DNA of 64,000 nucleotides. It comes from Halorubrum californiense DSM 19288. Its GTDB lineage: Archaea; Halobacteriota; Halobacteria; Halobacteriales; Haloferacaceae. Position 1 is the stretch's first letter; every line of letters begins with the position of its first letter. The DNA lies in NCBI RefSeq assembly GCF_000336875.1, contig NZ_AOJK01000064.1, positions 67,159 to 131,158 on the forward strand. The letters run 5' to 3'. The notes beneath the pieces are model-generated. The model did not search any database. It was not told the DNA's origin and worked only from the letters and a program-made list of their open reading frames with translations. The position numbers and the translations under genes are program-made. This document shows positions 8,661 through 28,908 of the stretch, piece after piece.

Positions 8661-11354
8661 TCAGTCGTCCGCGAGCGAGGCGATGTCGAGTTCGGCGGCG
8701 TCCTTCCGGCGGACGGTCGAGCGGTTCGAGCGCGGGTCCTTCTCCACCGTGACCAGCTCGTCGGCCGCGCCCACCAGCTCGTCGTCGTGGCTCACGATGA
8801 CGATCTGGGCCACACCGAAACCGCGCATCTCCTCGACCAGCCGGACGAGCCGCGAGACGTGCCCGGAGTCGAGGAACACCGTCGGCTCGTCGAGGATGAG
8901 CGGCGGGGTCGGCGCCGCGCCCTCGATCCCCTCCGAGAGCAGCCGGTAGATCGCACAGCGTAAGGAGAGGTTGAAGAGGGCGCGCTCGCCGCCGGAGAGC
9001 TGCTCGGGGTCGAGCGGCTCGCCGTCCTTCTGGTAGACGGTGAGGACGTACTCGCCGTCGAGTTCGATGTGCGAGTAGGCGTCGTTCCCGTAGACGAGCT
9101 CGAACGTCTCGTTGAGGGTGCGCTCCAGTTCGCTGACGTTGCGCTGTCGGAGCTCCGCGCGCAGATCGCCGTACATCGTCTCCAGCTCGCTCGTCTCCTC
9201 GTGGAGCGCTTCGAGCGCTTCGACCCGCTCGCCGAGCGCCTCGCGCTCCTCGCGGAGCGCCTCCAGCTCGGCGAGCTCGCCTTTCACTCCGCCGATCGCG
9301 TTCTGGAGCTCCTCCTGACGGTCGTCGAGCGCGTCGAGCTCCTCGGCGACCTGTTCGAGGTACCGCTCGGCCTCCTCCTTCCGATCTTTCGCCGTTTCGA
9401 CGGCGTCCTCGTCGACGGCGTCCGCCAGTTCGTCGCGCCGCTCGCGCCTGTCCGCGAGCCGGTCGCGCCGCTCGTCGTTCACCTCCGTCAGGTTCTCCCG
9501 CTTCTCGCGGCGGCGCTCGATATCGTCTTCCGCGTCCGCGATCGCGGACAGGCGCTCCTCGACCGCCGTCACCGCCTCGCGGGCGGCGTCGACCGCCGAC
9601 AGCGACGCCTCCAGCTCCTCGACGCGCTCCGCGGCTTCCGCCGCCTCCTCGCGCTTCTGCGCGGCGACCTCGCGGGTCTCTTCGGCCTCCTCGCGGAGTT
9701 CCGCGGCACGCTCGCGCTTCTCCGCGGCCGACTCTCGCTTCCGCTCCGCCTCCGCGCGCTTCTCCTCGACCCGTTCCTCGAGGGTCTCGATCCGCTCGTC
9801 GATCTCGTCGAGCCGGTCCGCAGCGCTCGCGAGCTCGTCCAGCTCCGCGACCCGCTCGTCCAAGTCGCCCTCGCGCTCGCGGGCAGCCTCCAACTCGGCT
9901 TCGAGTTCTTCCACTCGCTCGCGATCCTCGTCGATCCCGCTGGCGTGCGGGGAGTCCTCGATCGGCTGGCCGCACTCGGGGCACTTCCCGGCCGCCAGCA
10001 GCGCCTCGGCCTCGTCGACGCGCTCGCGGGCGTTCTTCAGCTCCGCCGACAGCTCGGCGATCCGCTCGCGGACCTCGCCGCGCTCGTCGCGGAGCGCGTC
10101 GCGCTCGTCGGCGACCCCCTCGCGGCCGACGTCGGCGTCGGCGTCCGCGAACCGCTCGCGGAGCCTGGCGGCCTCCTCGCGCAGCTCCTCGATTGATGCC
10201 TCGCGCTCGTCGACCTCCCCGGCCGCCGTCTCCGCCTCATCCGCGAGGTCGTCGGCCTCGGACTCGATCTCGGCGGCGCGCTCGGCGCGGTCGTCGGCCT
10301 TCCCGGCGAGGTTCGTCGCCTGATTACGGAGCGCCTCGGCGCTCACCCGCTCGTCGTCGAGTTCCTCGCGGACCGCTTCCTCCCGACCGTCGAGCTTCGT
10401 GCGGCGGTCGGCGATCGCCGCCTCGCTCGCCGCGTCGAGGCCGGCGTCGTCGAGCCGGTCGTCGATCGCGGCCTCGATCTCGTCGATCCGCTCGCGGGCC
10501 GCCCGAATCTTCTCCCGGTGGTCGTCGCGCTCGCGCTCGGCCGCCCGGATCGCGGCCTCGATCTCGTCGATTTCGTCCTCGACCGCCTCCAGCTCCTCCC
10601 GCTTTTCGGCGTGGGTCGACAGCGTCTCCGCGGCCGCGTCGCGGGTCTCCTTCGCCTGCTCCCGCTGGGACTCGTACCGATCGATCTCGTCGGTGACCTC
10701 GCCGAGTTCGCCCTCCAGCTCGTTGAGCCGCCCGTGGAGATCGCGGTCCTCCTTCGATTCGATCTGCTCGTCGAGCTGGTCGAGCCGGCCGCGCCTGTTT
10801 TCCAGCACGTCCTCGACGCCGAGCCGGGCGTCGCCGGCGCGCTCGCGGTACTCCTCCAGCTTCCCCAGCTGGAGGAGGTCGTCGATCGTGTCCTGCCGCT
10901 CTCGCGGGGTGGCGTTGATGAGCTTGTTCACCTCGCCCTGCCGCACGTACGCGCAGTTGACGAACGCCTCGGCGTCCATCCGTAACAGCTCCGTGACGAA
11001 CTCGCGGACCGCTCGCGCGCCGTCGCGAGTCACGTCGCTCCCGTCGGTCGATTCGAGCGTACACTGGTGGTCGATCCGGTCGTCGTAGGCCCTGAGCCGC
11101 CGCTCGACTCGGTAGGAGACGCCGTCGTGAGTGAACCACAGTTCGACCTCCGTCTCCGCCTCGCCGTTCGTGATGACGTCTTCGAGGGTCCCGTCGAGCG
11201 CCTTCGACCCGTACAGCGCGAAGAAGCAGGCCTCCAAGAGCGACGACTTCCCGCTGCCGTTGAGCCCGTGGATGACGGTGACGCCCTCCGTCAGGCGCAG
11301 GTCGGCGTCGCCGTACGGCTTGAAGTTCGCGAGGCGGACGCGGTCGAACTTCAC
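8661..11354 (-). CDS. rad50: Rad50, DNA double-strand break repair ATPase
   Basis: Rad50 is the SMC-like ATPase that partners Mre11 in sensing and tethering DNA ends. The protein has 897 residues. Walker A is GLNGSGKSS at residues 30-38. A long coiled coil rich in E/R/A follows on both sides of the zinc hook CPECGQP (Cys458, Cys461). The C-terminal lobe carries the signature LSGGERALFNLSLR and Walker B LILDEPTVFLD. It overlaps the end of mre11 by four bases (ATGA), so production of both is coupled. The composition is extremely Glu/Arg/Ala-rich across the coiled coil, which creates long meaningless open frames on the other strand. Confidence 0.97.
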   Translation of the reverse strand: MKFDRVRLANFKPYGDADLRLTEGVTVIHGLNGSGKSSLLEACFFALYGSKALDGTLEDVITNGEAETEVELWFTHDGVSYRVERRLRAYDDRIDHQCTLESTDGSDVTRDGARAVREFVTELLRMDAEAFVNCAYVRQGEVNKLINATPRERQDTIDDLLQLGKLEEYRERAGDARLGVEDVLENRRGRLDQLDEQIESKEDRDLHGRLNELEGELGEVTDEIDRYESQREQAKETRDAAAETLSTHAEKREELEAVEDEIDEIEAAIRAAERERDDHREKIRAARERIDEIEAAIDDRLDDAGLDAASEAAIADRRTKLDGREEAVREELDDERVSAEALRNQATNLAGKADDRAERAAEIESEADDLADEAETAAGEVDEREASIEELREEAARLRERFADADADVGREGVADERDALRDERGEVRERIAELSAELKNARERVDEAEALLAAGKCPECGQPIEDSPHASGIDEDRERVEELEAELEAAREREGDLDERVAELDELASAADRLDEIDERIETLEERVEEKRAEAERKRESAAEKRERAAELREEAEETREVAAQKREEAAEAAERVEELEASLSAVDAAREAVTAVEERLSAIADAEDDIERRREKRENLTEVNDERRDRLADRRERRDELADAVDEDAVETAKDRKEEAERYLEQVAEELDALDDRQEELQNAIGGVKGELAELEALREEREALGERVEALEALHEETSELETMYGDLRAELRQRNVSELERTLNETFELVYGNDAYSHIELDGEYVLTVYQKDGEPLDPEQLSGGERALFNLSLRCAIYRLLSEGIEGAAPTPPLILDEPTVFLDSGHVSRLVRLVEEMRGFGVAQIVIVSHDDELVGAADELVTVEKDPRSNRSTVRRKDAAELDIASLADD

Positions 11355-16420: not shown

Positions 16421-17323
16421 CTACTCGGTCCGTGCCCGGTGCGCGCGCACGGCGTCGCGGTACCCCGACCGGAACGTCGGGTGGACGAACTCGTAGCCGA
16501 GATCGCGGAGCAGCGCGTTCGAACACCGCTTGCTCGTTCGGATCCGACGCTCGGCGGCCGCGGAGAGGTCGCCGGCCGCGATCCGCTCGTCCTTCGATAG
16601 CTTCTCCGGGCGCGGGACGCCGCAGGCGTCGGCGAGCCAGTCGGCGAACGCGTGCTTGTCGACCGGCTCGTCGTCGACGACGAGGACGACGCGATCGCGT
16701 GCGCGGTCCGTCTCCAGCAGGTGTCGGATCGACCCCGCGGCGTCAGCACGGTGGACCATGTTCAGGTAGCCGGCCGTCACCGGCCCCTCCACGTACCGCT
16801 CAAGTCGGTACCGGTCCGGGCCGTACAGCCCTGCGAACCGGACGACGGTCCCGTCGATCCCGGCGTCACCCGCGCGTTCGGTCGCGATCCGCTCGGCCTC
16901 GGCGAGGACGCGCGTCTTCTCAGTGGTCGGCTGCACCGGCGTCTCTTCGTCGACCCACCCGCCGTCGTGGTCGCCGTACACGCCCGTCGAGGAGGTGTAC
17001 ACCAGCCGGTCCGGCGGCGCGGGCCGCGACTCGTACTCGTCGACGACGTTCGCCAGTCCGTCGACGTACACCTCCCGCGCCGCGTCGGCGCCCCGCCCGC
17101 CGGAACTGGCCGCGAAGACGACCGCGTCCGCGTCCGGGAGCGCCGAGAGCGACTCGGGGTCGGTCGCGTCCGCGCGGACGGCCTCGACGTCGGGACCGAC
17201 GGCGTCGACCGCGTCGAGCCCGGTATCCGACCGACGGACGCCGGTCACCGCGTGACCGCGGGCGTGGAGCTGCTCCGCCAGCGCCAGCCCGACGTAGCCG
17301 CAGCCGACGACGACGGCCCTCAT
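16421..17323 (-). CDS. NAD(P)-dependent SDR-family epimerase/dehydratase-like protein
   Basis: This is a 300-residue extended/atypical short-chain dehydrogenase. The Rossmann nucleotide-binding motif is GCGYVGLALAEQL near the N-terminus, and the catalytic-type segment is YTSSTGVYGDHDGGW. The pattern resembles YeeZ-like proteins. The substrate is unknown. The start overlaps the stop of the upstream gene by four bases (ATGA), so the pair forms an operon. Confidence 0.85.
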   Translation of the reverse strand: MRAVVVGCGYVGLALAEQLHARGHAVTGVRRSDTGLDAVDAVGPDVEAVRADATDPESLSALPDADAVVFAASSGGRGADAAREVYVDGLANVVDEYESRPAPPDRLVYTSSTGVYGDHDGGWVDEETPVQPTTEKTRVLAEAERIATERAGDAGIDGTVVRFAGLYGPDRYRLERYVEGPVTAGYLNMVHRADAAGSIRHLLETDRARDRVVLVVDDEPVDKHAFADWLADACGVPRPEKLSKDERIAAGDLSAAAERRIRTSKRCSNALLRDLGYEFVHPTFRSGYRDAVRAHRARTE

Positions 17324-17772
17324 GGCTTCCGGCGCTCGATGACCGCGAGGATCTCGGCGAGCTGTCCGAGCGTCATCGCGGTCCGCCCCTCCAGCGCCTG
17401 CTGGACCTCCTGACCGGTGAGGTCGGCGTCGATCTTCGCCGCGATCGCGTCGACGTCGAGGACGGCGGTCGCCATCCCCATCAGCAGGTGGTCGCGCACC
17501 TCCGCCACCATGGCGTCGGCCTCGCGGTCCGGGTTCGCCGCCGCGAGGACGGCCGCTCCGTCGGCGAGCGAGAGCGCCGCGACCTCCCCGTCGCGGACGG
17601 CGGTCGCGTCCGCCGCGGACAGTCCGATCTCGTCGACGAGCCCGTCGGGCTCGACGCTCGCTGCCGCCTCCGACACCAGTGCTTCGAACGCGGCGAGCAA
17701 GTCCCCCGCTGCCGGCTCGTCGGCGTCGACGTCGGGTCCGGATCCGCGGCCGTCGACGACCTCGTGGAACAT
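17320..17772 (-). CDS. Conserved haloarchaeal protein (DUF5791-like)
   Basis: This is a 150-residue protein whose C-terminal half, with AMVAEVRDHLLMGMATAVLD and LTGQEVQQALEGRTAMTLGQL, matches my memory of haloarchaeal DUF5791. It looks wholly helical and cytosolic. The middle segment GLSAADATAVRDGEVAALSL reads like a degenerate helix-turn-helix. Its function is not known. It is the first gene of a two-gene operon with the SDR gene and lies 79 bases after the stop of the large pilus-locus gene. Confidence 0.8.
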   Translation of the reverse strand: MFHEVVDGRGSGPDVDADEPAAGDLLAAFEALVSEAAASVEPDGLVDEIGLSAADATAVRDGEVAALSLADGAAVLAAANPDREADAMVAEVRDHLLMGMATAVLDVDAIAAKIDADLTGQEVQQALEGRTAMTLGQLAEILAVIERRKP

Positions 17773-17851: not shown

Positions 17852-20800
17852 TCACGACTCCGTACAGTCGTCTCCCTCTCCCGGAGTCGGACTCAGGGGT
17901 CCCGGACATGGCCAGCCGCCGGAGGTCTCGTCGCGGGTCCCGTCGACGTCGCCGACGCCCGGCGGCCCGGCGGGGACGGCGACGACGACGACCGTCCGCG
18001 TCTCGAAGGCGACCGGTTCCGTCGCCCCGAGCGCGACCGACTCGCCGTCCACGTCGACGCTGACCGCGCCGGGCTCCCGGACGTACTCGAACGGGTGGTC
18101 GGGGGTCCCGACGTTCGCGCGGAGGGCGAACCGGGGGTACTCGCCGCGCACCCGGACCTTCCACGCGTTGACCGTCGCCACCCAGTACCCGGGCACGGGC
18201 GCGACCGGAAGTCCCGCCCCGACGGTCCGAACCGGCTTCGGAACGCGCTCGTCCGGCACCGACGCGACCGCCTTCTGGGCGCGGGACTCGATCGCCGATT
18301 CGACCTTCTTCCGGCGAATCTGCCGGGCCGCGGCCGTCGTTTCGTCGATGAACCGCGCCGGAACGCGGACCGCGTCTCGCCCCGCCTCCTCGCGCGTCTC
18401 GACGCGGAGGTGCGCGGCGAGCCCGAGCCGCTCGGCAGTCGACAGCGACCCGACCCGCGCGGCCTCGCTCGCGATGCGATCCGGATACTCGCCCTCGCCG
18501 ACCGCGACGGCCCTCTCGCCGAGCGAGTCGTACTCGCTCGCGGCGTTCTCCAACACCGCGCTCCGCTGTTCGCGCGAGAGGTCGGTCCGCTCCGCGAGGC
18601 GCTCCGCCAGCGCGTCGTCGAGACGTTCCAAGGACGCGTCGACCCGGCCGGCGAGCGCGCGTCGGTCGGCGCGCAGGTCCTCGTCGTCGGCCGCCGCGAG
18701 GGCCTCTCCGGCCGCGAGGAGCGACCGCCCGGCGACGCCGAGGCGGACCGTGTCGTCGGTGCCGAGGATCCGGTCGGCGATCCCGCCGGAGACGTCGCTG
18801 TACGGGAGCGTGACGTAGTTCACGTTCCGGGTCGCGAGCGGTCGCGTGGTCGTGCCGTCGACGCCCTCGACGCGCTCCCCGTCGACCGCCGTCCGCGGGA
18901 GGTACCCCGGCGACCCTTCCGGGGCGAACGTGACGGCGCCCCCCGGCCCCCTGTCGCCGACGGTGTACGTCCCCGGGTCGCGTGCGGCCTCGCGGCTGGC
19001 GATCACCTCGCCCACGGGCGGTCCGCCGAACGCGTCGTTCACGCGGTCGAGAACGCCGTCGGTCGCGGACTTCCTGTCCTCGGCAGCCGATTCGAGTTCG
19101 GCGATCACGGCGTCGAGGTACGCGACGCGCGCGGCGATCCGGCCGCGGTCGACCACGCCGTCGTACCTCGCCGGGGCGTCGCGCAGCGCGTCGCGCCGGT
19201 CACGCACGGTCGCGGCGAGGTCGCGGTACGGCGTCGCCTCGCCGACCGCGGCGTCGGCCATCGACGCCTCGGTCTCGAACTCGCGGACGCGCTCCGACAT
19301 CGACAAGACGTCCCTCGCGATCCGGTCCAGATCCGCGTCCGACCGGTCGCCGTACACGACCGTCGAGCGCGTCTCGTCGCCACGTTCGACGGCGTCGCGC
19401 GCCAGCCGGTCGACGTCGCCGTCCGTCTCGACGTTCAGATCCGCCCTCGCGGCCGCCGGGGTGTCGGCGAGATCCGCCCCCTCGACGTCGCCGCCCTCGG
19501 CGGCGCCGAACGTCGCCGTCGGTCTGTCGGGAGCGCCGTCGCGCGGCGCGTACGTCCCGGTCACCGAGACGCGGACGCGGTACCGGTCCGTCGCCTCGTC
19601 GCTCGTCACGGCGCGGTCGACGCGCACGTTCTGTACCGTCCCGTTCGGCCCCCGCTCGACGACCCGCCGCTCCCACGTCGTGGTCGCGGCGCGCTCGACG
19701 GCGACCTCCCGGGTCGCGCCGCCGAAAGACACCGAGTCGCCGGCCGACACGGTCTCGCCGTCGGTCCCCGTTCGCAGGTCGCTCCCGCCGCCCACGCGGA
19801 CCCGCTCCGTCCGCGACGTGTCGACCCGCCGCCACGGTTCGTCGAGCAGCGACCGGGGGCGATCCGGCGTCACGGGGCCCCCGTCGACGACTCGCGTCGC
19901 CTCCGTCTCCAAGGTCGCCTCGACCCGGTGGCTCGCCCGCACGATCGAGTCGAGGTCGTCGTGGACGCGGGTCGCGGCGCGGTCGGCCGCGTGCCCGACC
20001 TCGACCGACGCGGTCTCGCTCGTCGCGTCCCCGGCCGGGTCGAAGGCGGCGTCCTCGCTCGCGGTCGCGTCACCGTTCGCGTCCCTCGCCGATTCCTCCG
20101 TCGAATCCGCATTCGTTCCCCCACCGTCCCCCGTCGGCGTCGGGGCTCCGAGGACGGCGTCCGTCCAGGAGGCCTCGTGGACGCCGGTCGGCGACAGCAG
20201 GTCGGTCACGCCCGTCCGAGCCGTCGCGCGGGCGACGCCGCCGCGCGCGTCGGGGTCGCTGGTCCCGAACACGTCCCGCTGGACGCGGACGATCCCGGCG
20301 TTCGTCGACAGTTCGACGTGGCGGTTCGCGATGACGTTCTCGACGGGCGCGCCGGCGTACTGCCCGTACCCCCGAGCCCACGCCATCGCGTAGAGGCTGG
20401 CGGTGACCTGCCGGCCGAGCCCGGGCCCCTCGACGGGGCCGCGGTTGAGTCGCCGCTCGAACCGCTCGGTCCGCTCGTGGGCGGCCAGCGTCGGCACGGC
20501 GACCGTCACCGTCCGCGATCGCGTCCGGTTCACGACGGTCCGGCCGTCCCGCGTCGCGGTCGTCGCGACGCCCTCGAAGGTGACCCGCGTCGCGGTCCCA
20601 TTCGCGGCCGGTTCGATGCCGACCCGCTCGCGCGCCGCGACGAGGTCGTCGGCCGAGTCGACCGCCGGGAGCGAGACGTTCGCCTCGACGCCGCCGACGT
20701 CGCTCTCGACCGCGCGCAACGCCTCCGCCCCGGCGATCGCGAGCCGGACCCGGAACGCGTCCTCGAAGGCGGATCCCTCCCGGACCACTTCGGCGCCGGG

Positions 20801-21097
20801 TCCGTCTCCCGCCGGCGCGCGCGTCACCGGCTCCGCCGCCGCGTCGTGGGCGGCCTCGCGCGCGGCGCTCCTGAGTGCGGCGGTGGCGTCGGCCTCGACG
20901 CGCTCGACGGCGCGCTCGACGCGACGGTCCTCGCCGACCAGTCCCTGCTCGGCGAGCCCCGCGGCGTACGCCGAACTCGTCACGAGCAACAGCACGCCGA
21001 CGAGCGCGAAGGGAACCCGTGCCCGTTCGTCAACGGTGAACGTCCGAGCGCGACCCGCGTCCGCAGACCGACCGCGGCCTCGGTTCCCCACGCTCAC
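17852..21097 (-). CDS. Very large membrane-anchored pilus-locus protein (DUF7286-like)
   Basis: This 1,081-residue protein is the last gene of the pilus-like locus. The N-terminus has a basic segment followed by ERARVPFALVGVLLLVTSSA, a membrane helix that resembles an archaeal type IV pilin signal (charged residues, then a long hydrophobic stretch). The rest is predicted to be extracytoplasmic, Thr/Arg/Asp-rich and without recognised enzymatic motifs. The C-terminus has a proline-rich segment. The family resembles DUF7286 in my memory. I chose the GTG start because it overlaps the preceding stop (GTGA) and has a GGAGG ribosome-binding sequence just upstream. It may be a tip or scaffold component; that is an inference. 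Confidence 0.8.
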   Translation of the reverse strand: MSVGNRGRGRSADAGRARTFTVDERARVPFALVGVLLLVTSSAYAAGLAEQGLVGEDRRVERAVERVEADATAALRSAAREAAHDAAAEPVTRAPAGDGPGAEVVREGSAFEDAFRVRLAIAGAEALRAVESDVGGVEANVSLPAVDSADDLVAARERVGIEPAANGTATRVTFEGVATTATRDGRTVVNRTRSRTVTVAVPTLAAHERTERFERRLNRGPVEGPGLGRQVTASLYAMAWARGYGQYAGAPVENVIANRHVELSTNAGIVRVQRDVFGTSDPDARGGVARATARTGVTDLLSPTGVHEASWTDAVLGAPTPTGDGGGTNADSTEESARDANGDATASEDAAFDPAGDATSETASVEVGHAADRAATRVHDDLDSIVRASHRVEATLETEATRVVDGGPVTPDRPRSLLDEPWRRVDTSRTERVRVGGGSDLRTGTDGETVSAGDSVSFGGATREVAVERAATTTWERRVVERGPNGTVQNVRVDRAVTSDEATDRYRVRVSVTGTYAPRDGAPDRPTATFGAAEGGDVEGADLADTPAAARADLNVETDGDVDRLARDAVERGDETRSTVVYGDRSDADLDRIARDVLSMSERVREFETEASMADAAVGEATPYRDLAATVRDRRDALRDAPARYDGVVDRGRIAARVAYLDAVIAELESAAEDRKSATDGVLDRVNDAFGGPPVGEVIASREAARDPGTYTVGDRGPGGAVTFAPEGSPGYLPRTAVDGERVEGVDGTTTRPLATRNVNYVTLPYSDVSGGIADRILGTDDTVRLGVAGRSLLAAGEALAAADDEDLRADRRALAGRVDASLERLDDALAERLAERTDLSREQRSAVLENAASEYDSLGERAVAVGEGEYPDRIASEAARVGSLSTAERLGLAAHLRVETREEAGRDAVRVPARFIDETTAAARQIRRKKVESAIESRAQKAVASVPDERVPKPVRTVGAGLPVAPVPGYWVATVNAWKVRVRGEYPRFALRANVGTPDHPFEYVREPGAVSVDVDGESVALGATEPVAFETRTVVVVAVPAGPPGVGDVDGTRDETSGGWPCPGPLSPTPGEGDDCTES

Positions 21098-21747
21098 CAC
21101 CTCCGGACGATGACCCGAACGAAGTTGACCGACGATCGACGCTCGCCCCCCTCGCCGTCGAACCGGTCCGGAACCGGGTGTCGGACCACGGCGACGGCGA
21201 TGTCGGCGTTCCGCGGCGGTTCGGGGCCGATGGCGAAGGACTTTCTGGTATCGCTCGGCCCGTCCGCTCGGCCTCGGTCGCCAATCTCCGGCGCCGGAAC
21301 CGCCCCGCCGGCGACCGAGGCCGGACGCGACGCCGCCCCGCCCCGTACAGCCGGCGGGCTCGGGAGCCTCCACGTGCCGCCGTCCGTCTCGGTGCCGATG
21401 GCGTCGTTCCGGTCGGTCTCGGCGACGGCTTTCACCGTCGCGTCGACCCGCGTCCGCGGACCGACTCCCGCGCGGACGGACTCGACGGCCCTGCGGTCGA
21501 ACGCGGTCTCCGCGTCGCGGGCCGCGAGCAGCGCGAGCAACTCGGCGCGGGTCGCGTGGATGCGACGCGTCTCGTTCGGCGCGCCCTCGTCGGGATAGCT
21601 CACCGTCGTAGTCTCGGTGACGAGCCGGTCGGCGGCGTCGGTCGCGGTCGGGCCGTCGGGACCGACGGCGTCGCTCGCGCCGAGCGCGACGACGCTCGCC
21701 GAGACGCAAAGCAGCAGCACGGTCACGTCGAGCACGGTGCTGGTCAC
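21094..21747 (-). CDS. Membrane-anchored pilus-locus protein (DUF7284-like)
   Basis: This is a 217-residue protein with an N-terminal membrane helix directly after the start (STVLDVTVLLLCVSASVVAL), followed by an exported domain of about 190 residues with no recognised motif. It ends VNFVRVIVRRW. The arrangement, short cytosolic N-terminus plus hydrophobic stalk plus soluble domain, is that of a pseudopilin or TadE-like protein. The GTG start overlaps the previous stop (GTGA) and its own stop overlaps the next start (GTGA). The family assignment to DUF7284 is from memory. Confidence 0.75.
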   Translation of the reverse strand: MTSTVLDVTVLLLCVSASVVALGASDAVGPDGPTATDAADRLVTETTTVSYPDEGAPNETRRIHATRAELLALLAARDAETAFDRRAVESVRAGVGPRTRVDATVKAVAETDRNDAIGTETDGGTWRLPSPPAVRGGAASRPASVAGGAVPAPEIGDRGRADGPSDTRKSFAIGPEPPRNADIAVAVVRHPVPDRFDGEGGERRSSVNFVRVIVRRW

Positions 21748-22208
21748 CGCCACACCACCGCCCGGAGCGTCCCGCGCACGTTCCGGCCCGGCGCCACGCG
21801 GACCGTCACCCGACGCTCGGCGACCGCGACCGCGTCCGGCGACCGGACTCCCGGCGGTCCCGGCGCGTCCGGGCCCGACGCGGCCAGCCACCGCTCGTCG
21901 CCCGCCTCCAGTTCGATCGCGGTCGCGGTCCCGGGCGCTTCGACCCGCCGCATCCGGTCCGGGTCGACGACGCCGCCGACGGTGACCATCCCCTCGATCC
22001 GGTCGAGCGCCGCCCTCGCGGCCGATCGGTCATCGTCGGGTGCCGCGTCCGCGAACGCGCCGGCGTACAGCCCCAGCGCGAGCCCGACGATCACCACCGC
22101 GACGAGCGCGGCAGTCGGTTCGACGGCGGCGCGGTCGGCTGTCGAGAACGCCGGGGCCGGTCGCCTCGAAGCTCCCGACGCGTCCGACCTCGCGGGATCT
22201 GGTGACAC
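21744..22208 (-). CDS. Membrane-anchored pilus-locus protein (DUF7285-like)
   Basis: This is a 154-residue protein. A polar N-terminal leader of about 28 residues ends in DRAAVEPTAALVAVVIVGLA. This resembles a class III (prepilin peptidase) signal: a basic residue, a short small-residue motif, an acidic residue at mature position 2-3, then a hydrophobic helix. An exported domain of about 100 residues with conserved basic residues at the C-terminus follows. The start is GTG, six bases after the preceding stop. The family resembles DUF7285 from memory. Whether the leader is actually cleaved cannot be seen. Confidence 0.75.
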   Translation of the reverse strand: MSPDPARSDASGASRRPAPAFSTADRAAVEPTAALVAVVIVGLALGLYAGAFADAAPDDDRSAARAALDRIEGMVTVGGVVDPDRMRRVEAPGTATAIELEAGDERWLAASGPDAPGPPGVRSPDAVAVAERRVTVRVAPGRNVRGTLRAVVWR

Positions 22209-22214
22209 GCGAGA

Positions 22215-22715
22215 TCACCCCACGAGCGTGACGTGGACGTCGCCGTAGTGGACCCGACGAACCGTGATCCGCTCCGGTGCGGGCGTCCACGTCGCGTCCG
22301 CCGCTCGCGCACGCTCGGCCGCCGCCGCGAACGCCGCCGGATCGTCGAACGCGGCGCCCGGCGGAGCGCCGGCGAGGACGCGCCGAAGCCGCGCATCCGT
22401 CGTCGCCTCGGGGCTCGCCCCCGCAGAGGGCCGGATCACCGGGGTGATCCGCGGGGCGTCGAGCGTCGCCCGCGCCGTCACCCGATCGTCGCCGAGCGAG
22501 ACGGATCCCTCTGAGAGCCGGAGCCTCTCCGCGGCGATTCCGTGTTCGGCCGTCGCCGGATACTCCCCGTCCGCGACCGAGTCGACCGTGCGCGCGACGC
22601 CGTCGGCGTCCGGCGGCGGCGAGGCCGGGAACGATGCGGCCACGCCGACGGCCGCGACGCTCACGACGGCCAGACCGAGCCACGCGTACGTGGCGTCGAG
22701 GTGCGTCTCGAACAT
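22215..22715 (-). CDS. Membrane-anchored pilus-locus protein (DUF7283-like)
   Basis: This is a 166-residue protein with a short N-terminus (MFETHLDATYAW) leading into a membrane helix (LGLAVVSVAAVGVAASFP) and an exported domain. It is the first gene of the DUF7283-7285-7284-7286 group and has its own promoter, a TATA box 18 bases before the ATG. This gives a leaderless mRNA and fixes the start codon. The family resembles DUF7283 from memory. It may be a minor pilin-like subunit. Confidence 0.75.
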   Translation of the reverse strand: MFETHLDATYAWLGLAVVSVAAVGVAASFPASPPPDADGVARTVDSVADGEYPATAEHGIAAERLRLSEGSVSLGDDRVTARATLDAPRITPVIRPSAGASPEATTDARLRRVLAGAPPGAAFDDPAAFAAAAERARAADATWTPAPERITVRRVHYGDVHVTLVG

Positions 22716-22733
22716 GGCGCGGCTGGCCCCGGC

Positions 22734-22746
22734 TTGGTATATAAAC
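22734..22746 (-). promoter_or_regulatory. Promoter of the pilus-locus membrane-protein genes
   Basis: On the minus strand the box reads GTTTATATACCAA and ends 18 bases before the start codon. The identical 13 bases with identical 18-base spacing stand before the ATPase gene at 26583-26595, so the two transcription units are likely co-regulated. Confidence 0.75.
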
Positions 22747-22800
22747 TATCGGCGCCGCGGGTCGGGTCCACTCTCGGCTCCGTTCCCCCGGCTCCCGGTC

Positions 22801-24627
22801 TCAAAAGAGGAGCCCGGCGCCGGCGAACGCGACGAGGAACGTCGCGGTGGCCGTCGGCAGCGCGATGCCGATCCGATACGCCACCAGCGTCCGGTCGAAC
22901 CCCCGCTCCAACCCGGTCGCGAGTCCCGTGAGGAGCGCGGCGAGCAGCAGCACGTACGCCCCGACGATCCGTCCGAGAATCGGCACAGATAGCGTCCCCG
23001 CACCGCCACCCACCCCGGCCGCGCCGCTCCCGCCGACCGCACTACCGCCGGTCGCTCCGCTTCCGGTGCTCAGGCCGCCCCCGCTGAGCGCGTCGGCGCC
23101 AGCGGCCGCCCCGGCGCCGAGACTACCGATGTCGACCGCGTCGATCCCCGTCGCGAGCGCGACGGTCGCCCCGCCGACGAGCGGCGCGAACACCGCGGCG
23201 GTGTTCGAGAGCGTCCCCGTGACGGTCGCCAGCTGGCGCCGCGCGTCGCGTTCGAGGTCGCGCAGGGACTCCAGCTGGTCCGCGAGCTCCAGCAGGACGT
23301 CGCCGGCCGGCCGGCCCTCGCGCGCGGCGACGGCGAGGAGCGCGATCGCGCCCCGGAGCCGGGGCGACGGGACGGCGGCCGCCGGTCCGCCCTGCCCCAG
23401 GAACGCCTCGCGGACGCCGACCCGCAACGTGTCGCTGCGTCGCCCGGCGCGCTCGAACAGCTCGCCGGTCGCGCCGTCCAAGCGCTCGCCGGCGTTCGCG
23501 ACCGCGGTCTCGACCGCGACCCCCTCCGCCACGTCCCCGCCGATCACGGTCATCGCGTCCGGGAGCCCGCGCTCGACGTCGCGCACGTCAGATAACACCG
23601 CCCGGCGGGGACGCGCGAGGACGAACAGCGCGCTCCCGACGCCGACGCCGACCCCCCCGACCGGCCACGCCCACGGCGCGACTGCCCGCGCGGCGACGAC
23701 GGCCGCCGCCGCCCCGAGGGCGCACCCGACGACGAGCGCGTGGCCGCGCCGCTCCGGCACGTCCGGGTGGTCACCGCTGATCTCCGGCGGTGGGAACGCG
23801 ACCGGTCGGCGGAAGAGCAGCCACGCCGAGGCGGCTATCAGCCCTGCGGGGAGCGCGACGAGGTACAGGCCGGCGACGAGTCCGGGCCTGATCGCGACCC
23901 CGGCGGCGGCGCCCGCGGGAAGCAGCGCGATGAGCGCCAGCGGGAGCAGCACGCCGAACGCGTACAGCGCGGAGACCGGTCCCCGCACCGCGCCGACGAA
24001 CGACGCGAGCCTGTCGGTCGTCCCCGAGAGCGTCGCGTCGAGCGCGCGGTCGAGACACCGCCCCCGGCGTTCCGGCGGCGCGGTCGCCGCCGTCCGGACC
24101 AGCGCCGCGGCGCGGTCGATCGCCGGGAACCACGGTCGCCACTCGCGAGCGAACGCCCGAAGCCCGCTCGTCGGTCCGTCCGCGCTCCCCCGCTCGTGGC
24201 GAGCGAGCGCCGCGGCCAGCGGCCCGTCGCCGGTCCGACCGGCGAACCGTACCGCCCGCTCGGTGGAGGGGTCCAGCCGCATCCGCAACACGAGTCGCCC
24301 GACGAGCCCCGGCGCCGCGCCGAGCGCCCGCGTCCGCCGGAGCGACGCGAGCCACACCGGCGCCCGGTGGACCGCGTGAACCCCGCCGACGAAGGCGGCC
24401 AACCCCGCCGGTGCGGCGGCGACCGCGCCGGCGACGAGCGCCGCGACGGCGGTGACGACCGCGCCGGCGACGGCGCCGACCCGATACCCGACGGCCACGA
24501 CGCGCTCGGCGGAGGCGTCCCACCCGAGGAACGCGACGGCCCGCCGTAGCTCATCCGAAGCCGTCGACCCGTCCTCGCCGACAGAACGGAGCGATCCGCC
24601 GGACCGACTCGACCCGCCGTCTCTCAT
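22801..24627 (-). CDS. TadC/GspF-type pilus membrane platform protein
   Basis: This is a 608-residue inner-membrane platform protein of the GspF/TadC/PilC family. Several membrane helices are grouped in two halves (about 50-95, 200-270 and a C-terminal group around 520-600), and cytosolic T2SSF-like domains are rich in Arg and Glu. A Gly/Ser/Ala-rich linker of about 45 residues (around 480-530) precedes the last helices. The start overlaps the ATPase stop by four bases (ATGA), so motor and platform are made together, as in other archaeal type IV filament systems. Confidence 0.88.
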   Translation of the reverse strand: MRDGGSSRSGGSLRSVGEDGSTASDELRRAVAFLGWDASAERVVAVGYRVGAVAGAVVTAVAALVAGAVAAAPAGLAAFVGGVHAVHRAPVWLASLRRTRALGAAPGLVGRLVLRMRLDPSTERAVRFAGRTGDGPLAAALARHERGSADGPTSGLRAFAREWRPWFPAIDRAAALVRTAATAPPERRGRCLDRALDATLSGTTDRLASFVGAVRGPVSALYAFGVLLPLALIALLPAGAAAGVAIRPGLVAGLYLVALPAGLIAASAWLLFRRPVAFPPPEISGDHPDVPERRGHALVVGCALGAAAAVVAARAVAPWAWPVGGVGVGVGSALFVLARPRRAVLSDVRDVERGLPDAMTVIGGDVAEGVAVETAVANAGERLDGATGELFERAGRRSDTLRVGVREAFLGQGGPAAAVPSPRLRGAIALLAVAAREGRPAGDVLLELADQLESLRDLERDARRQLATVTGTLSNTAAVFAPLVGGATVALATGIDAVDIGSLGAGAAAGADALSGGGLSTGSGATGGSAVGGSGAAGVGGGAGTLSVPILGRIVGAYVLLLAALLTGLATGLERGFDRTLVAYRIGIALPTATATFLVAFAGAGLLF

Positions 24628-26564
24628 CGGTCGCCTCCGGCGTACCGCGTCGGCGCGATCCGTCCCGTTCGAACCGCCTCGCGGACTCGGTCGCTCCGCC
24701 GGTCGACGGCTTCCCGAACCGCGGCGTACGACTCGTCCGACGCGGCGAGGTCCTCGATCAGTCGGCTCTCGCCGCGGTCGATCCGCCCCGTCGCGACGAG
24801 TCCTCGCTCGGTCCGCTCGAAGAGGGGATCGAAGCTCACCCCCTCGTCGTGGTCGCCGACTTCGACGATCGATTCGACGCGGTGGTCGTCGAGGACCGCG
24901 ATCAGGTCGGTCGCGGCGAACGACGACCGGGTGACCCCGAGGTCGGTGACGACGCGCTCCTCGACGGCCGCCGGGTCCTCGCCGTGAATCGTCCCGAGGA
25001 CCGTCTCGCCGGCGGCCCCGACGCGCATCGCCTCGTACAGCGCTCGCGCCTCCTCGCCGCGCACCTCGCCGACGCTTATCGCGCCGCCGCCCATGCGGAG
25101 CGCGGTTCGCACGGCGTCCGCCGGCGCGAGTTCGGCGCCGTCTCCGACGCGGAGTCGCTGGGCGTCCCGCCCGGCGTCGGCGAGCGCGTCAACCGGGAGT
25201 TCCGGCGTGTCCTCGATGACTATCGTGCGGGTTTCGGCGCCCAGTTCCCACAGCAGCGCCCCGAGCGCGGTCGTCTTCCCGGCCGCTCGGCCGCCCGCGA
25301 CCAGTCCGGTCACGCCGCGCTCGACGGCGACCGACAACAGGCCGGCCGCCGCGGGCGTGAGCGTGTCGACGGACACCAGCCGAGCGAGCGTCCACGCCTC
25401 CGGGTCCCCGCGACGGAAAGTGAAGGAGAGGCCGTCGCTCGCCGGGGCCGTGGCCGCGGCGACCCTGACGCGACCGGTTTCGGACTCGATGGTCGCGTCG
25501 AGCGTCGGCGTCGCCCGCGAGAACGCCCGTCCGCTCTCTCGCCGGAGCCGCGACGCGAGGGTGGCGGCCCCCTCCGGCGGGAGCCGCACGTTCGTCCGGC
25601 AGCGCTCGCCGTCGAGGACCACGCGGAGCGGGTTCTCCGCGACCGGCGCCGTCACCGTCGCGTCGCTCACCCGGTCGTCCGCGAAGACGTGTTCGAACGC
25701 GCCGTAGCCGTGCGTGTGTCGCCGCAGGACCTCGGTCAGGTCCGCGACCGGGTCGTCGTCGTTCGCCACCGCCCGCACCGCCCGGCCGGGCGCCCTGTCC
25801 CCGCCGCGGGGGTCGTCGAGCAGTCGGTCCCGCGCGGCGGCCAGCGTCGCCACGCTCTCGACGTCCAAGTCGGCGCTCGGCGGCGTGAGGTGGTAGGTCC
25901 TGAGAGAGTCGTCGCCCTCGTAGAGCCGGACGGTCGCCCCGGTCAAGACCGTCCAGCGGTCGATCAGCGTCGCGCCCGGCGGCGGCGCGGCCGCGACGCG
26001 CGCGGTGGCGGCCGTCGGCCCGACGTGCGCCCGAAGGCGCTCGCGCAGGTCGCGGTCGCTCTCGGCTCCGTCCGCGTCTCCCGCGAGGTCCTCGGCGGCC
26101 GACAGCAGCCCCGTCTCGGTCGCGATCCGCCTTGCGGGACCCGCGCGTCCGGCCGCCTCCGACGCCGCACCGAGCGGGTCGCTGGCGACCCGGTCGGCGA
26201 GCCGCTCCTCGTGGAATCCGATCCGCTCCCGGAACCGTCCCGCGGCGATCAGGAGTTCGGCGGCGCAGTCGGCGTAGGACCGCTCCCGCCCGCGGTGTCG
26301 AGTCCGGATCACGCCCGCGTCCCGGTCGGTGAGCGCCGCGACGACGGTCGCCAGACAGTCCGGGCTCGCGGCGAGGTCACCGCGTCCGGGACAGCCATCG
26401 GCGTCGACGTCGAGGACGACCCGATTCTCGACACCCGTCCCCACGGGCTCGCGGAACGTCGGATCGCACCGGCATCCGCCGTCGTCGCCGTCGATCCACG
26501 GAAGCCGTCTGAGCGGCGTCTCGCCGTCGTCGCCGGCCATCCGCTCGGTGAGGCCGAGATTCAT
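24624..26564 (-). CDS. GspE/PilB-type secretion ATPase of the pilus-like locus
   Basis: This 646-residue hexameric ATPase powers filament assembly. The C-terminal motor has Walker A GGRAAGKTT (424-432), an Asp box VIEDTPELPV, a Walker B region AISVGEVRGEE and a His box GTIHGED. The N-terminal domain carries four cysteines (31, 33, 58, 70) that could bind zinc. I chose the ATG (MNLGLTERM) because a strong TATA box lies 18 bases upstream. An extended open frame further upstream is not coding. The downstream TadC-type gene overlaps by four bases. Confidence 0.9.
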   Translation of the reverse strand: MNLGLTERMAGDDGETPLRRLPWIDGDDGGCRCDPTFREPVGTGVENRVVLDVDADGCPGRGDLAASPDCLATVVAALTDRDAGVIRTRHRGRERSYADCAAELLIAAGRFRERIGFHEERLADRVASDPLGAASEAAGRAGPARRIATETGLLSAAEDLAGDADGAESDRDLRERLRAHVGPTAATARVAAAPPPGATLIDRWTVLTGATVRLYEGDDSLRTYHLTPPSADLDVESVATLAAARDRLLDDPRGGDRAPGRAVRAVANDDDPVADLTEVLRRHTHGYGAFEHVFADDRVSDATVTAPVAENPLRVVLDGERCRTNVRLPPEGAATLASRLRRESGRAFSRATPTLDATIESETGRVRVAAATAPASDGLSFTFRRGDPEAWTLARLVSVDTLTPAAAGLLSVAVERGVTGLVAGGRAAGKTTALGALLWELGAETRTIVIEDTPELPVDALADAGRDAQRLRVGDGAELAPADAVRTALRMGGGAISVGEVRGEEARALYEAMRVGAAGETVLGTIHGEDPAAVEERVVTDLGVTRSSFAATDLIAVLDDHRVESIVEVGDHDEGVSFDPLFERTERGLVATGRIDRGESRLIEDLAASDESYAAVREAVDRRSDRVREAVRTGRIAPTRYAGGDR

Positions 26565-26582
26565 GGCGGACGTGGCCGCGGT

Positions 26583-26595
26583 TTGGTATATAAAC
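26583..26595 (-). promoter_or_regulatory. Promoter of the pilus-locus ATPase gene
   Basis: The box GTTTATATACCAA ends 18 bases before the ATPase ATG and is the twin of the box at 22734-22746. The following leader also matches that of the other promoter at 12 of 18 positions. Confidence 0.75.
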
Positions 26596-26637
26596 GATCG
26601 CCCGCCGTCCGCTCCCGGTTCCTCCGGTCGGTCGGAG

Positions 26638-27102
26638 CTATCCGACACGACGGATCCGGACCGTCGGCCCGTCGTCGTCGACGTACCGGACCCGAATCCG
26701 GCTCGGTCCGTCGGTCCGAAGTTCGATCGGTCCCCCGACGAGGTCGACGGCCGTCTCCGCCGGGCCCGTGCCGACGCGGAGCGTGCGCTCCGGTCGGCCG
26801 TCGATCCGGTACGCGAGCGAGACGCCGCCCGGTCTGTCCGGCGACTCGACGAGCGCGACGCGGTCGAGGTCCGACGCGGCAAACCCGGTCGGAACCCGGA
26901 GGAGGACCGTCGTCTGCGCCGCCATCGCCGGATCGCTCACGGGAGTCGAGTCCGCGACGACGCCGCCGATCGCTCGCTCCAGCCGGTCCGCCCCCGCGCC
27001 GATCCGCTCCGCCGTCGTCGCGGCCCGGGCCGTCTCGACCGCGGGCATCGACGCCGCCAGCAGCGCGACCGCCACGAGGACGGTGAGCACCACGCGGATC
27101 AC
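26638..27102 (-). CDS. Membrane-anchored pilus-locus protein (DUF7311-like)
   Basis: This is a 154-residue protein with an N-terminal membrane helix immediately after the start (VLTVLVAVALLAASMPAVE), followed by a helical segment with small residues and an exported beta-rich domain ending VRIRRVG. The N-terminal design resembles pseudopilins or TadE-like subunits. The start is a GTG seven bases after the upstream stop. The family resembles DUF7311 from memory. It is cotranscribed with the coiled-coil protein gene and ends 43 bases before the ATPase promoter box. Confidence 0.75.
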   Translation of the reverse strand: MIRVVLTVLVAVALLAASMPAVETARAATTAERIGAGADRLERAIGGVVADSTPVSDPAMAAQTTVLLRVPTGFAASDLDRVALVESPDRPGGVSLAYRIDGRPERTLRVGTGPAETAVDLVGGPIELRTDGPSRIRVRYVDDDGPTVRIRRVG

Positions 27103-27109
27103 GGCGCGC

Positions 27110-27754
27110 TCACAGCGACTCCCGGAGTCGGTCCAGCGCGTCCGTCGCCCACGCTCCGTCGTCGTCCCCGCCGTCCCCGTCGCTCTCGCCGTTGCCGGTG
27201 CGCTGGCCGGACGTCGGCCGATCGCCCGGCAGGGCGGCGTCGAGGGCGCTCTCCGACGGGACCGCACCGCCGGGGCCGTCCCCGTCTCTCGCGACTCGAT
27301 CGGGTGCCCCACTCCGGCCGTCTCGATCGGGTGCGCCGCTCCGGCCGGCTCGCCCGCCCCCGTCGATATCGCCGTCCCGACCGGACTCTCGTCCAGCCTC
27401 GGTCGCCCGCGCCAGCGCGAGGTCGGCCCGCCGCTCGACCTCGCGGTTGACGGCCCTGACCGCCCCCGCGTAGCCGCGGACCGCCTGCGTCGCCGCCTCC
27501 AGCTCCGCGACGCGCTCCTCGATGTCGTCGAGGCGCGACTCGATCCGCTCGCGCTCGGCCGTCGCCTCCGCCTCCGCGGCGGCGTCCGCCGGGCGCGCGT
27601 CGCTTCCAGTTACCGCGCGCTCGACCGCGCTGAGCCGGGCCTCGATCCGCTCGTCCGCTTCGTCCGCTCCGGTCGACGCCTCGGTCTCCGCCTCCGTCGG
27701 CGTCGCCTCCGTTCCCCTCCTCGACGGCTCGGCGCCCCGCGCGTGGTCGGTCAT
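27110..27754 (-). CDS. Coiled-coil pilus-locus protein (DUF7310-like)
   Basis: This is a 214-residue cytosolic protein. An acidic N-terminal tail leads to a coiled coil (about 45-130) with heptad-like segments such as RIESRLDDIEERVAELEAAT and a central RGYAGAVRAVNREVERRADL. After this comes a low-complexity Gly/Asp/Arg linker with a near-perfect repeat (GRSGAPDR twice) and a C-terminal helix (DALDRLRESL). It resembles haloarchaeal DUF7310 from memory. It is the first gene of the pilus-like locus. A TATA-like sequence (GTTTAAGA) lies about 30 bases before the ATG, in a divergent region shared with the CetZ-like gene. Confidence 0.78.
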   Translation of the reverse strand: MTDHARGAEPSRRGTEATPTEAETEASTGADEADERIEARLSAVERAVTGSDARPADAAAEAEATAERERIESRLDDIEERVAELEAATQAVRGYAGAVRAVNREVERRADLALARATEAGRESGRDGDIDGGGRAGRSGAPDRDGRSGAPDRVARDGDGPGGAVPSESALDAALPGDRPTSGQRTGNGESDGDGGDDDGAWATDALDRLRESL

Positions 27755-27828
27755 GCGACCCGTTGCCCGCGGTTTCACTCTTAAACCTCGGGGAAAGGGT
27801 ATTGTCGCGGGGGACGGTACGTCCTCGC

Positions 27829-28908
27829 ATGAAGGCAGTCCTCCTCGGCGTCGGACAGGCGGGCGGCAAGCTGGCGACCGCCCTCGCGGAGTTCGACGCC
27901 GACGCCGGCTACGGCGCGGTCCTCGACGCGATCGCCGTCAACACGGCCGCGGCCGACCTCGACCCGCTCCCGCTCGAAACGGTCCTCGTCGGACAGTCGC
28001 GCGTCAACGGTCACGGCGTCGGCGGCGACAACGAACTCGGCGCGGAAGTGATGGACGAAGACACCGTCGAGGTGTTGGACGCGCTGGCGCCGAAGGTCAC
28101 CGCGGAGGCGGAGGCCGTCTTCGTCGTCGCCGGCCTCGGCGGCGGGACGGGCTCCGGCGGCGCGCCGATCCTCGTCCGGGAGCTGAACCGGGTGTACGAC
28201 GTTCCGGTGTACGCGATCGGAATCCTCCCCGGCCGCGACGAGGGGACGATGTACCAGGTGAACGCCGGGCGGTCGCTGAAGACGCTGGTCCGCGAGGCGG
28301 ACGCGACGATCCTGCTCGACAACGACGCGTGGCGCTCCGCGGGCGAGTCCGTTGAGGGCGGCTACGAGGCGATCAACGCCTCGATGGCGAAGCGGATCGG
28401 CCTCCTCTTGGCCGCCGGCGAGGCGGTCGAGGGGGTCGCCGAGTCCGTCGTCGACACGAGCGAGGTGATAAACACGCTCCGGGCGGGCGGGATGGCCGCG
28501 GTCGGGTTCGCGTCCGCGCCCGCGGCCGAGGACCCGCAGGAGAACGTCAACACGGTGACGAGCGCGGTCCGCAGCGCGGTGATGACCGGGCTCTCGCTGC
28601 CGAGCGCCACCGACGCCGACGCCGCTCTCGTCGCGGTCGCGGGCGACCCGGATCGGATCTCTCGGAAGGGCGCGGAGAAGGCGCGCAAGTGGCTTCAAGA
28701 GGAGACGGGCTCGATGCAGGTCCGCGGCGGCGACTTCCCGCTCGACTCCGACCGGATCGCCGCCTTGGTCCTCCTCGCTGGCGTCGAGCGCTCCCAACGC
28801 GTGGAGGCGTTCTTGGAGCGCGCGAGGCAGGCGGTCCGCGACGAGCGCGAGGAGAAACCGGACCCGGCGGCCGCGTTCGAGAACGACGAACTCGACGACC
28901 TGCTCTGA
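27829..28908 (+). CDS. CetZ-family tubulin-like protein
   Basis: This is a 359-residue GTPase of the tubulin/FtsZ superfamily, CetZ group. It has the N-terminal nucleotide-binding segment ([12 protein letters not shown]), the tubulin signature GGGTGSG at 104-110, and a C-terminal acidic tail ending DELDDLL. CetZ proteins in haloarchaea influence cell shape and motility. The start ATG (MKAVLLGVG) lies 28 bases after a GC-rich box and matches the family N-terminus. It is divergent from the pilus-like locus across 74 bases. Confidence 0.9.

Follow-up and report, generated by a model that had tools for sequence, protein, structure and literature searches.

A candidate dedicated type IV pilus-like assembly machine beside a CetZ gene in Halorubrum californiense

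Haloarchaea have several type IV pilus (T4P) machines, one of which is linked to a tubulin-like gene and has yet to be matched with a product. In Halobacterium salinarum R1, the pil-2 locus (OE1347R-OE1332R) holds seven open reading frames that are co-transcribed from pilB2 on, three open reading frames of the locus carry FlaFind prepilin signals, and pilB2 is up 8.5-fold in adherent cells (Losensky et al., PMC4292770). Brown and Duggin (2023, PMC9856176) later found a pilB2/C2 regulon beside cetZ2 in many haloarchaea, accompanied by an epimerase gene and a conserved hypothetical gene, and took its patchy distribution as a possible sign of recent acquisition or of a mobile element. T4P subclade 4F is characterized by a Cys-rich ATPase N-terminus, the coiled-coil partner arCOG07564 and an FtsZ-family neighbour (Makarova et al., 2016, PMC4858521), and PilB2 has elsewhere been put in clade 4C, not 4F (Legerme and Pohlschroder). 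Here we analyse a 64-kb stretch of DNA from Halorubrum californiense DSM 19288 (the window), in which eight genes at positions 17852-27754 would encode, with a probability of roughly 0.65 in our estimate, a dedicated archaeal type IV pilus-like assembly machine with DUF7285, DUF7284 and DUF7286 (the trio) as its cognate subunits.

The locus and its described counterparts

An earlier note on this DNA had described an eight-gene type IV pilus-like cluster. All eight genes lie where it had placed them and match named families; profile searches against Pfam back the family assignment for 8/8, the T2SSF match of the platform being below threshold in the window copy. Each of the five proteins credited with an N-terminal membrane helix has one. 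In minus-strand order, starting at 27754 and ending at 17852, the genes are:

27110..27754, minus: DUF7310, 214 aa, coiled-coil, no membrane helix (PF23991, 7.7e-27)
26638..27102, minus: DUF7311, 154 aa, GTG start, membrane helix directly after the start, no class III signal (PF23993, 4.6e-36)
24624..26564, minus: GspE/VirB11/CpaF-type assembly ATPase, 646 aa, N-terminal CxC...C...C domain (PF00437, 1.1e-17)
22801..24627, minus: TadC/PilC-type platform, 608 aa, 8 hydrophobic segments, 4-nucleotide (nt) overlap with the ATPase stop (PF00482, weak)
22215..22715, minus: DUF7283, 166 aa, one membrane helix, no class III signal (PF23954, 1.2e-48)
21744..22208, minus: DUF7285, 154 aa, GTG start, pilin-like, class III-like RA followed by AVEPTAALVAVV (PF23956, 1.6e-27)
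21094..21747, minus: DUF7284, 217 aa, pilin-like, start VTSTVLDV without leader, 4-nt overlaps on both sides (PF23955, 3.5e-9)
17852..21097, minus: DUF7286, 1081 aa, giant pilin-like, class III-like RA followed by RVPFALVGVLLL (PF23957, E = 0)

The motor and platform roles proposed earlier are both supported. The GspE-type ATPase combines its Pfam match with a Walker A motif (GGRAAGKT), a GEVRG motif and relatives in the PDB, of which the nearest are Archaeoglobus 2OAP, annotated as type II secretion, and CpaF at a nearly equal score, with FlaI also among them; the N-terminal Cys pattern is present in 60/62 ATPase orthologues. The TadC-type assignment is carried by the overlap with the ATPase gene, the hydrophobic segments and T2SSF matches in 7/16 orthologues (best 2.3e-5, against a sub-threshold E of 0.005 for the window protein). 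A prepilin peptidase is also encoded in the genome (one Peptidase_A24 match, 41.4 bits). Among named relatives, those closest to DUF7286 come from Halorubrum, with a top identity of 91% in H. distributum.

Judging from layout, this is the version that Halorubrum has of the predicted haloarchaeal T4P regulon in the literature, namely pil-2 of Hbt. salinarum and the cetZ2-linked pilB2/C2, and by synteny the adjacent CetZ gene would be cetZ2. It shares with pil-2 a haloarchaea-restricted ATPase-TadC operon followed by predicted prepilins, and the published transcript starting at the ATPase agrees with the start that we infer from a TATA box; it differs in that pilC2 has an internal stop on the pil-2 side, the orthology is drawn from layout and literature rather than from the pil-2 sequence, and the DUF families were unnamed then. 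The DUF728x/731x family names are not mentioned in the papers searched. With the cetZ2-linked regulon it shares the arrangement of an adjacent CetZ, a sugar epimerase, a DHH/exopolyphosphatase-like gene and a conserved hypothetical gene (here DUF5791), whereas recent acquisition was considered possible there and loss is shown at four scarred sites here. The Cys-rich ATPase N-terminus and the FtsZ-family neighbour of subclade 4F are present, and the coiled-coil DUF7310, which precedes the ATPase, is a candidate for its haloarchaeal coiled-coil partner; by layout, membership in 4F is probable. The dedicated PilA-family major pilin of 4F is not in this locus. The system is thus a known archaeal T4P variant, to which a narrower pilin set, a module and promoter structure, an occurrence outside haloarchaea and evidence of loss are added here.

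Co-occurrence of the trio with the motor

Among 145 Halobacteria, intact DUF7286 was found in 107 genomes (111 matches minus 4 remnants), DUF7285 and DUF7283 in 107 each and the cognate ATPase in 105, while DUF7310 was over the cut-off in 110/145; genomes within one family are not independent in these counts. Trio and ATPase occurred together in 105 genomes and were both missing from 38; two had the trio only and none the ATPase only. The ATPase genome set therefore falls inside the trio set, the exceptions being one genome whose locus is split across small contigs (G121) and one complete genome (G045), to which we return below. The flanking DUF5791 occurs in 144/145 with or without the machine, and the presence pattern is thus specific to the machine. 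Outside Halobacteria, the phylum sample held 231 genomes, of which 40 had both DUF7286 and the ATPase (40/44 with either), 1 had DUF7286 alone, 3 the ATPase alone and 187 neither. The two genes are usually ~20 kb to 1.3 Mb apart in these genomes, so linkage does not explain their co-occurrence. The earlier note had held that frequent separation from the ATPase/TadC pair would speak against a common machine; in Halobacteria the genes are nearly always linked, and outside they are usually unlinked yet still co-occur.

This pattern bears on a different division of labour, in which a PilA-family major pilin from another locus, rather than DUF7285, makes up the main filament and the DUF728x proteins are its minor pilins or cap only. 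Stand-alone PilA-family major pilins (arCOG02981, arCOG10216) have been assigned to 4F, and ATPase/TadC modules may use pilins in trans (Makarova et al., 2016, PMC4858521). The Haloferax volcanii PilB3-C3/PilA pili, which share the motor/platform superfamily and class III N-termini with the machine described here, differ in the RAVSPVIG of PilA, absent here, and have a PilB3-C3 operon without pilins. The trio genes are, moreover, normally single copy per genome, which also speaks for this reading. Against this stands the almost perfect tracking of the cognate ATPase by the trio, even where they are unlinked, and we consider a major pilin from elsewhere unlikely.

Pilin-like N-termini and candidate subunits

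Motif counts were anchored on the conserved core of each family, and [RK][GA] was scored at the exact prepilin offset and at other offsets. The exact offset was occupied in 62/62 DUF7285, 68/73 DUF7286 and 29/60 DUF7284 proteins, compared with at most 5 at any other offset; for DUF7285 and DUF7286, no other offset tested had more than 2. The N-terminal patterns are R[GA]xxEP in DUF7285 and R[GA]R[VI]PFAL[VI]G in DUF7286, and the two class III pilin signals quoted in the earlier note thus occupy a strongly conserved position. RAVSPVIG was, as the note had said, not found in the window locus, though about half of the DUF7284 relatives carry R[AG][VI]STVxD, which resembles RAVSPV, and a few have a three-residue leader (MRA before ISTVVD). 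A class III signal was looked for in DUF7283 and DUF7311 and not seen. There is good support for a type IV pilus-like machine that has pilin-like subunits of its own, while the proposal that all DUF728x/731x proteins are structural subunits is too broad, because prepilin-like N-termini occur in 3/5 only, DUF7283 and DUF7311 being without them. We infer that DUF7285, DUF7286 and, in relatives, DUF7284 are the pilin-like parts of the machine.

In the proposed machine, prepilin peptidase would cut short leaders off DUF7285 and DUF7286, the Halorubrum DUF7284 would be made without a leader, and the ATPase and platform would assemble a pilus or short pseudopilus by stacking the subunits via their N-terminal helices. 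DUF7286, encoded last in the operon and exceeding 1,000 residues, may be a tip or minor pilin with a large domain displayed at the surface. For DUF7283 and DUF7311 we propose accessory roles, as proteins anchored in the membrane and lying outside it; DUF7310 may be a coiled-coil regulator in the cytoplasm, and CetZ may serve as a scaffold for positioning. Surface attachment is the likely use. A more specific version is advanced tentatively: the pilus or pseudopilus may be capped by the pilin-like DUF7286 and may include a DUF7284 that shed its leader in many haloarchaea (from full, via three residues, to none as in MTSTVLD) and enters the filament without prepilin peptidase. Were this true, it would bear on the start of pilus assembly and on whether prepilin cleavage is needed, as has been supposed. 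No archaeal pilin or pseudopilin that we know of comes near the ~1,000 residues of DUF7286. The naming of likely subunits, the split between accessory and pilin-like genes and the reading of absence as loss in several genomes provide concrete targets in the tractable Haloferax volcanii.

The AlphaFold model of DUF7285 (predicted local distance difference test, pLDDT, 70.7) has helices at 31-55 and 59-75 followed by four strands, a predicted layout compatible with a pilin, and the low-confidence model of DUF7286 (pLDDT 60) starts likewise, with helices at 27-50 and 57-88, and continues into further domains. No convincing PDB sequence relative was found for DUF7285, DUF7286 or DUF7283, and neither TadE nor pseudopilin families of Pfam matched DUF7285 or DUF7286 at E<=1. 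Foldseek gave no significant match for DUF7285; ribosomal protein uS3 and sensor domains reached middling scores only (Foldseek, VIA), and a comparison with the Halobacterium archaellum (E 0.32, root-mean-square deviation near 16 A) was uninformative. DUF7283 and DUF7284 aligned at 73% in hhalign with full profiles, against <=1.5% with shuffled columns, but at 0.3% minus the membrane segment; shared descent was rejected because the signal disappears with that segment. Other pairs among the five anchored families gave nothing convincing.

Several observations weigh against a dedicated machine with these subunits. Structure searches with the DUF7285 and DUF7286 models, both weak, returned no pilin match. 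Residue +1 of DUF7286 is Arg, which lies outside the FlaFind motif, and 33/60 DUF7284 proteins, the Halorubrum ones included, start at or beside the mature-like sequence, the leader being absent. The complete genome G045 (L135) has DUF7285-7284-7286 beside DUF5791 but no orthologous ATPase, and DUF7283 and DUF7310 are also absent over the cut-off; this is either decay in progress or the use of another motor. The system is so far a predicted one, to which no filament, processing or phenotype is attached. In Hbt. salinarum, pilC2 of R1 carries an internal stop, no filament has been assigned to pil-2, and pilB2 of NRC-1 is interrupted (PMC4292770). The anchored proteins might instead be envelope proteins unrelated to filament assembly and co-regulated with a T4P motor, in keeping with the missing signals of DUF7283 and DUF7311, the empty structure searches and the motorless trio of G045. 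The position-exact prepilin-like motifs in three families and the co-occurrence with the motor outside operon linkage make this highly improbable in our judgement.

A type II secretion-like device, in which a short DUF7285/7284 pseudopilus with a GspK-like giant tip (DUF7286) releases substrates and no long pilus is formed, would also account for a last and largest gene whose product has no acidic residue near +5. GspK likewise has no acidic residue there. The 2OAP annotation points the same way, but CpaF scores nearly as high as 2OAP, neither a substrate nor an exporter partner was found, and the fold search with the low-confidence DUF7286 model gave nothing above Z 5 and no GspK match. We regard this alternative as quite improbable and retain the dedicated pilus-like machine as the preferred reading.

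Transcription units, loss and flanking genes

Boxes of the form TTTA[AT] were searched 20-38 nt before start codons, with within-gene controls. The boxes of the window, with their frequency among mapped loci, and the flanking genes are:

27780..27785, minus: TTTAAG, predicted TATA-like box ahead of DUF7310 (19/57 loci)
26587..26594, minus: TTTATATA box, ~23-30 nt upstream of the ATPase start (32/60 loci)
22738..22745, minus: TTTATATA box, ~23-30 nt upstream of DUF7283 (52/65 loci)
27829..28908, plus: CetZ (tubulin-like) gene, 359 aa, divergent from the cluster (CetZ_C 6.9e-64, Tubulin 2.1e-28)
17320..17772, minus: DUF5791 flanking gene, outside the machine (PF19104, 5.2e-39)

Other genes had boxes in 0-3 loci and the within-gene controls in 0 (ATPase 0/60). 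Genes within units overlap by 4 nt or stand 6-7 nt apart, and the unit boundaries measure 73 and 85 nt. The conserved TATA boxes thus suggest three units, 7310-7311, ATPase-TadC and 7283-7285-7284-7286; the ATPase and TadC genes are placed in one unit because of the gene overlap and the promoter-like box. The order 7310-7311-ATPase-TadC-7283-7285-7284-7286 is kept in most mapped haloarchaeal loci. The genes also fall into two modules: in G046, G069, G087 and G124 some or all trio genes are separated from the ATPase-TadC genes or opposed to them, a copy of ATPase-TadC-DUF7283 without the trio occurs in G141 and G033, and Methanosarcina- and Methanocella-like loci have the trio without a nearby ATPase. 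L126 and L128 represent a second type of locus, DUF7310-ATPase-TadC-DUF7283-DUF5791, in which DUF7283 is divergent and the trio is missing, the trio being elsewhere in the same genomes. In Methanocella/Methanosarcina-like genomes, at least two further small single-helix proteins that match no Pfam family are encoded ahead of the DUF7285-7284-7286 trio or of DUF7286 (L114:5639-6729, plus; L113:14608-15775, plus; L119:11297-12741, minus), which suggests a larger ancestral pilin set.

Remnants of DUF7286 lie beside DUF5791 in four genomes (G067, G012, G125 and G056), and 3/4 of these scarred sites retain an intact or truncated DUF7310, one of the three also a truncated DUF7311. Each site lacks ~7.4-8.4 kb of internal sequence that close relatives have, and the flanks align at ~80-91%; G056 has an additional small gap. 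The ATPase orthologue is absent from all four, their best matches (124-138 bits) being paralogues, against 378-984 bits for true orthologues. These deletion scars identify the absence of the machine in the four genomes as loss and speak against recent acquisition there. As G067 and G012 belong to the same genus, at least three independent events are counted. At the G012 junction (L111 ~8669-8699), the flanking alignments overlap by 31 bases, hinting at repeat-mediated excision.

DUF5791 and an NAD epimerase gene lie directly downstream of the cluster, and a DHH-type gene lies downstream as well. Neither the divergent CetZ gene nor the orthology to published loci had featured in the earlier note. 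Only the 74 nt at 27755-27828 separate the divergent DUF7310 and CetZ genes, which therefore probably share a control region.

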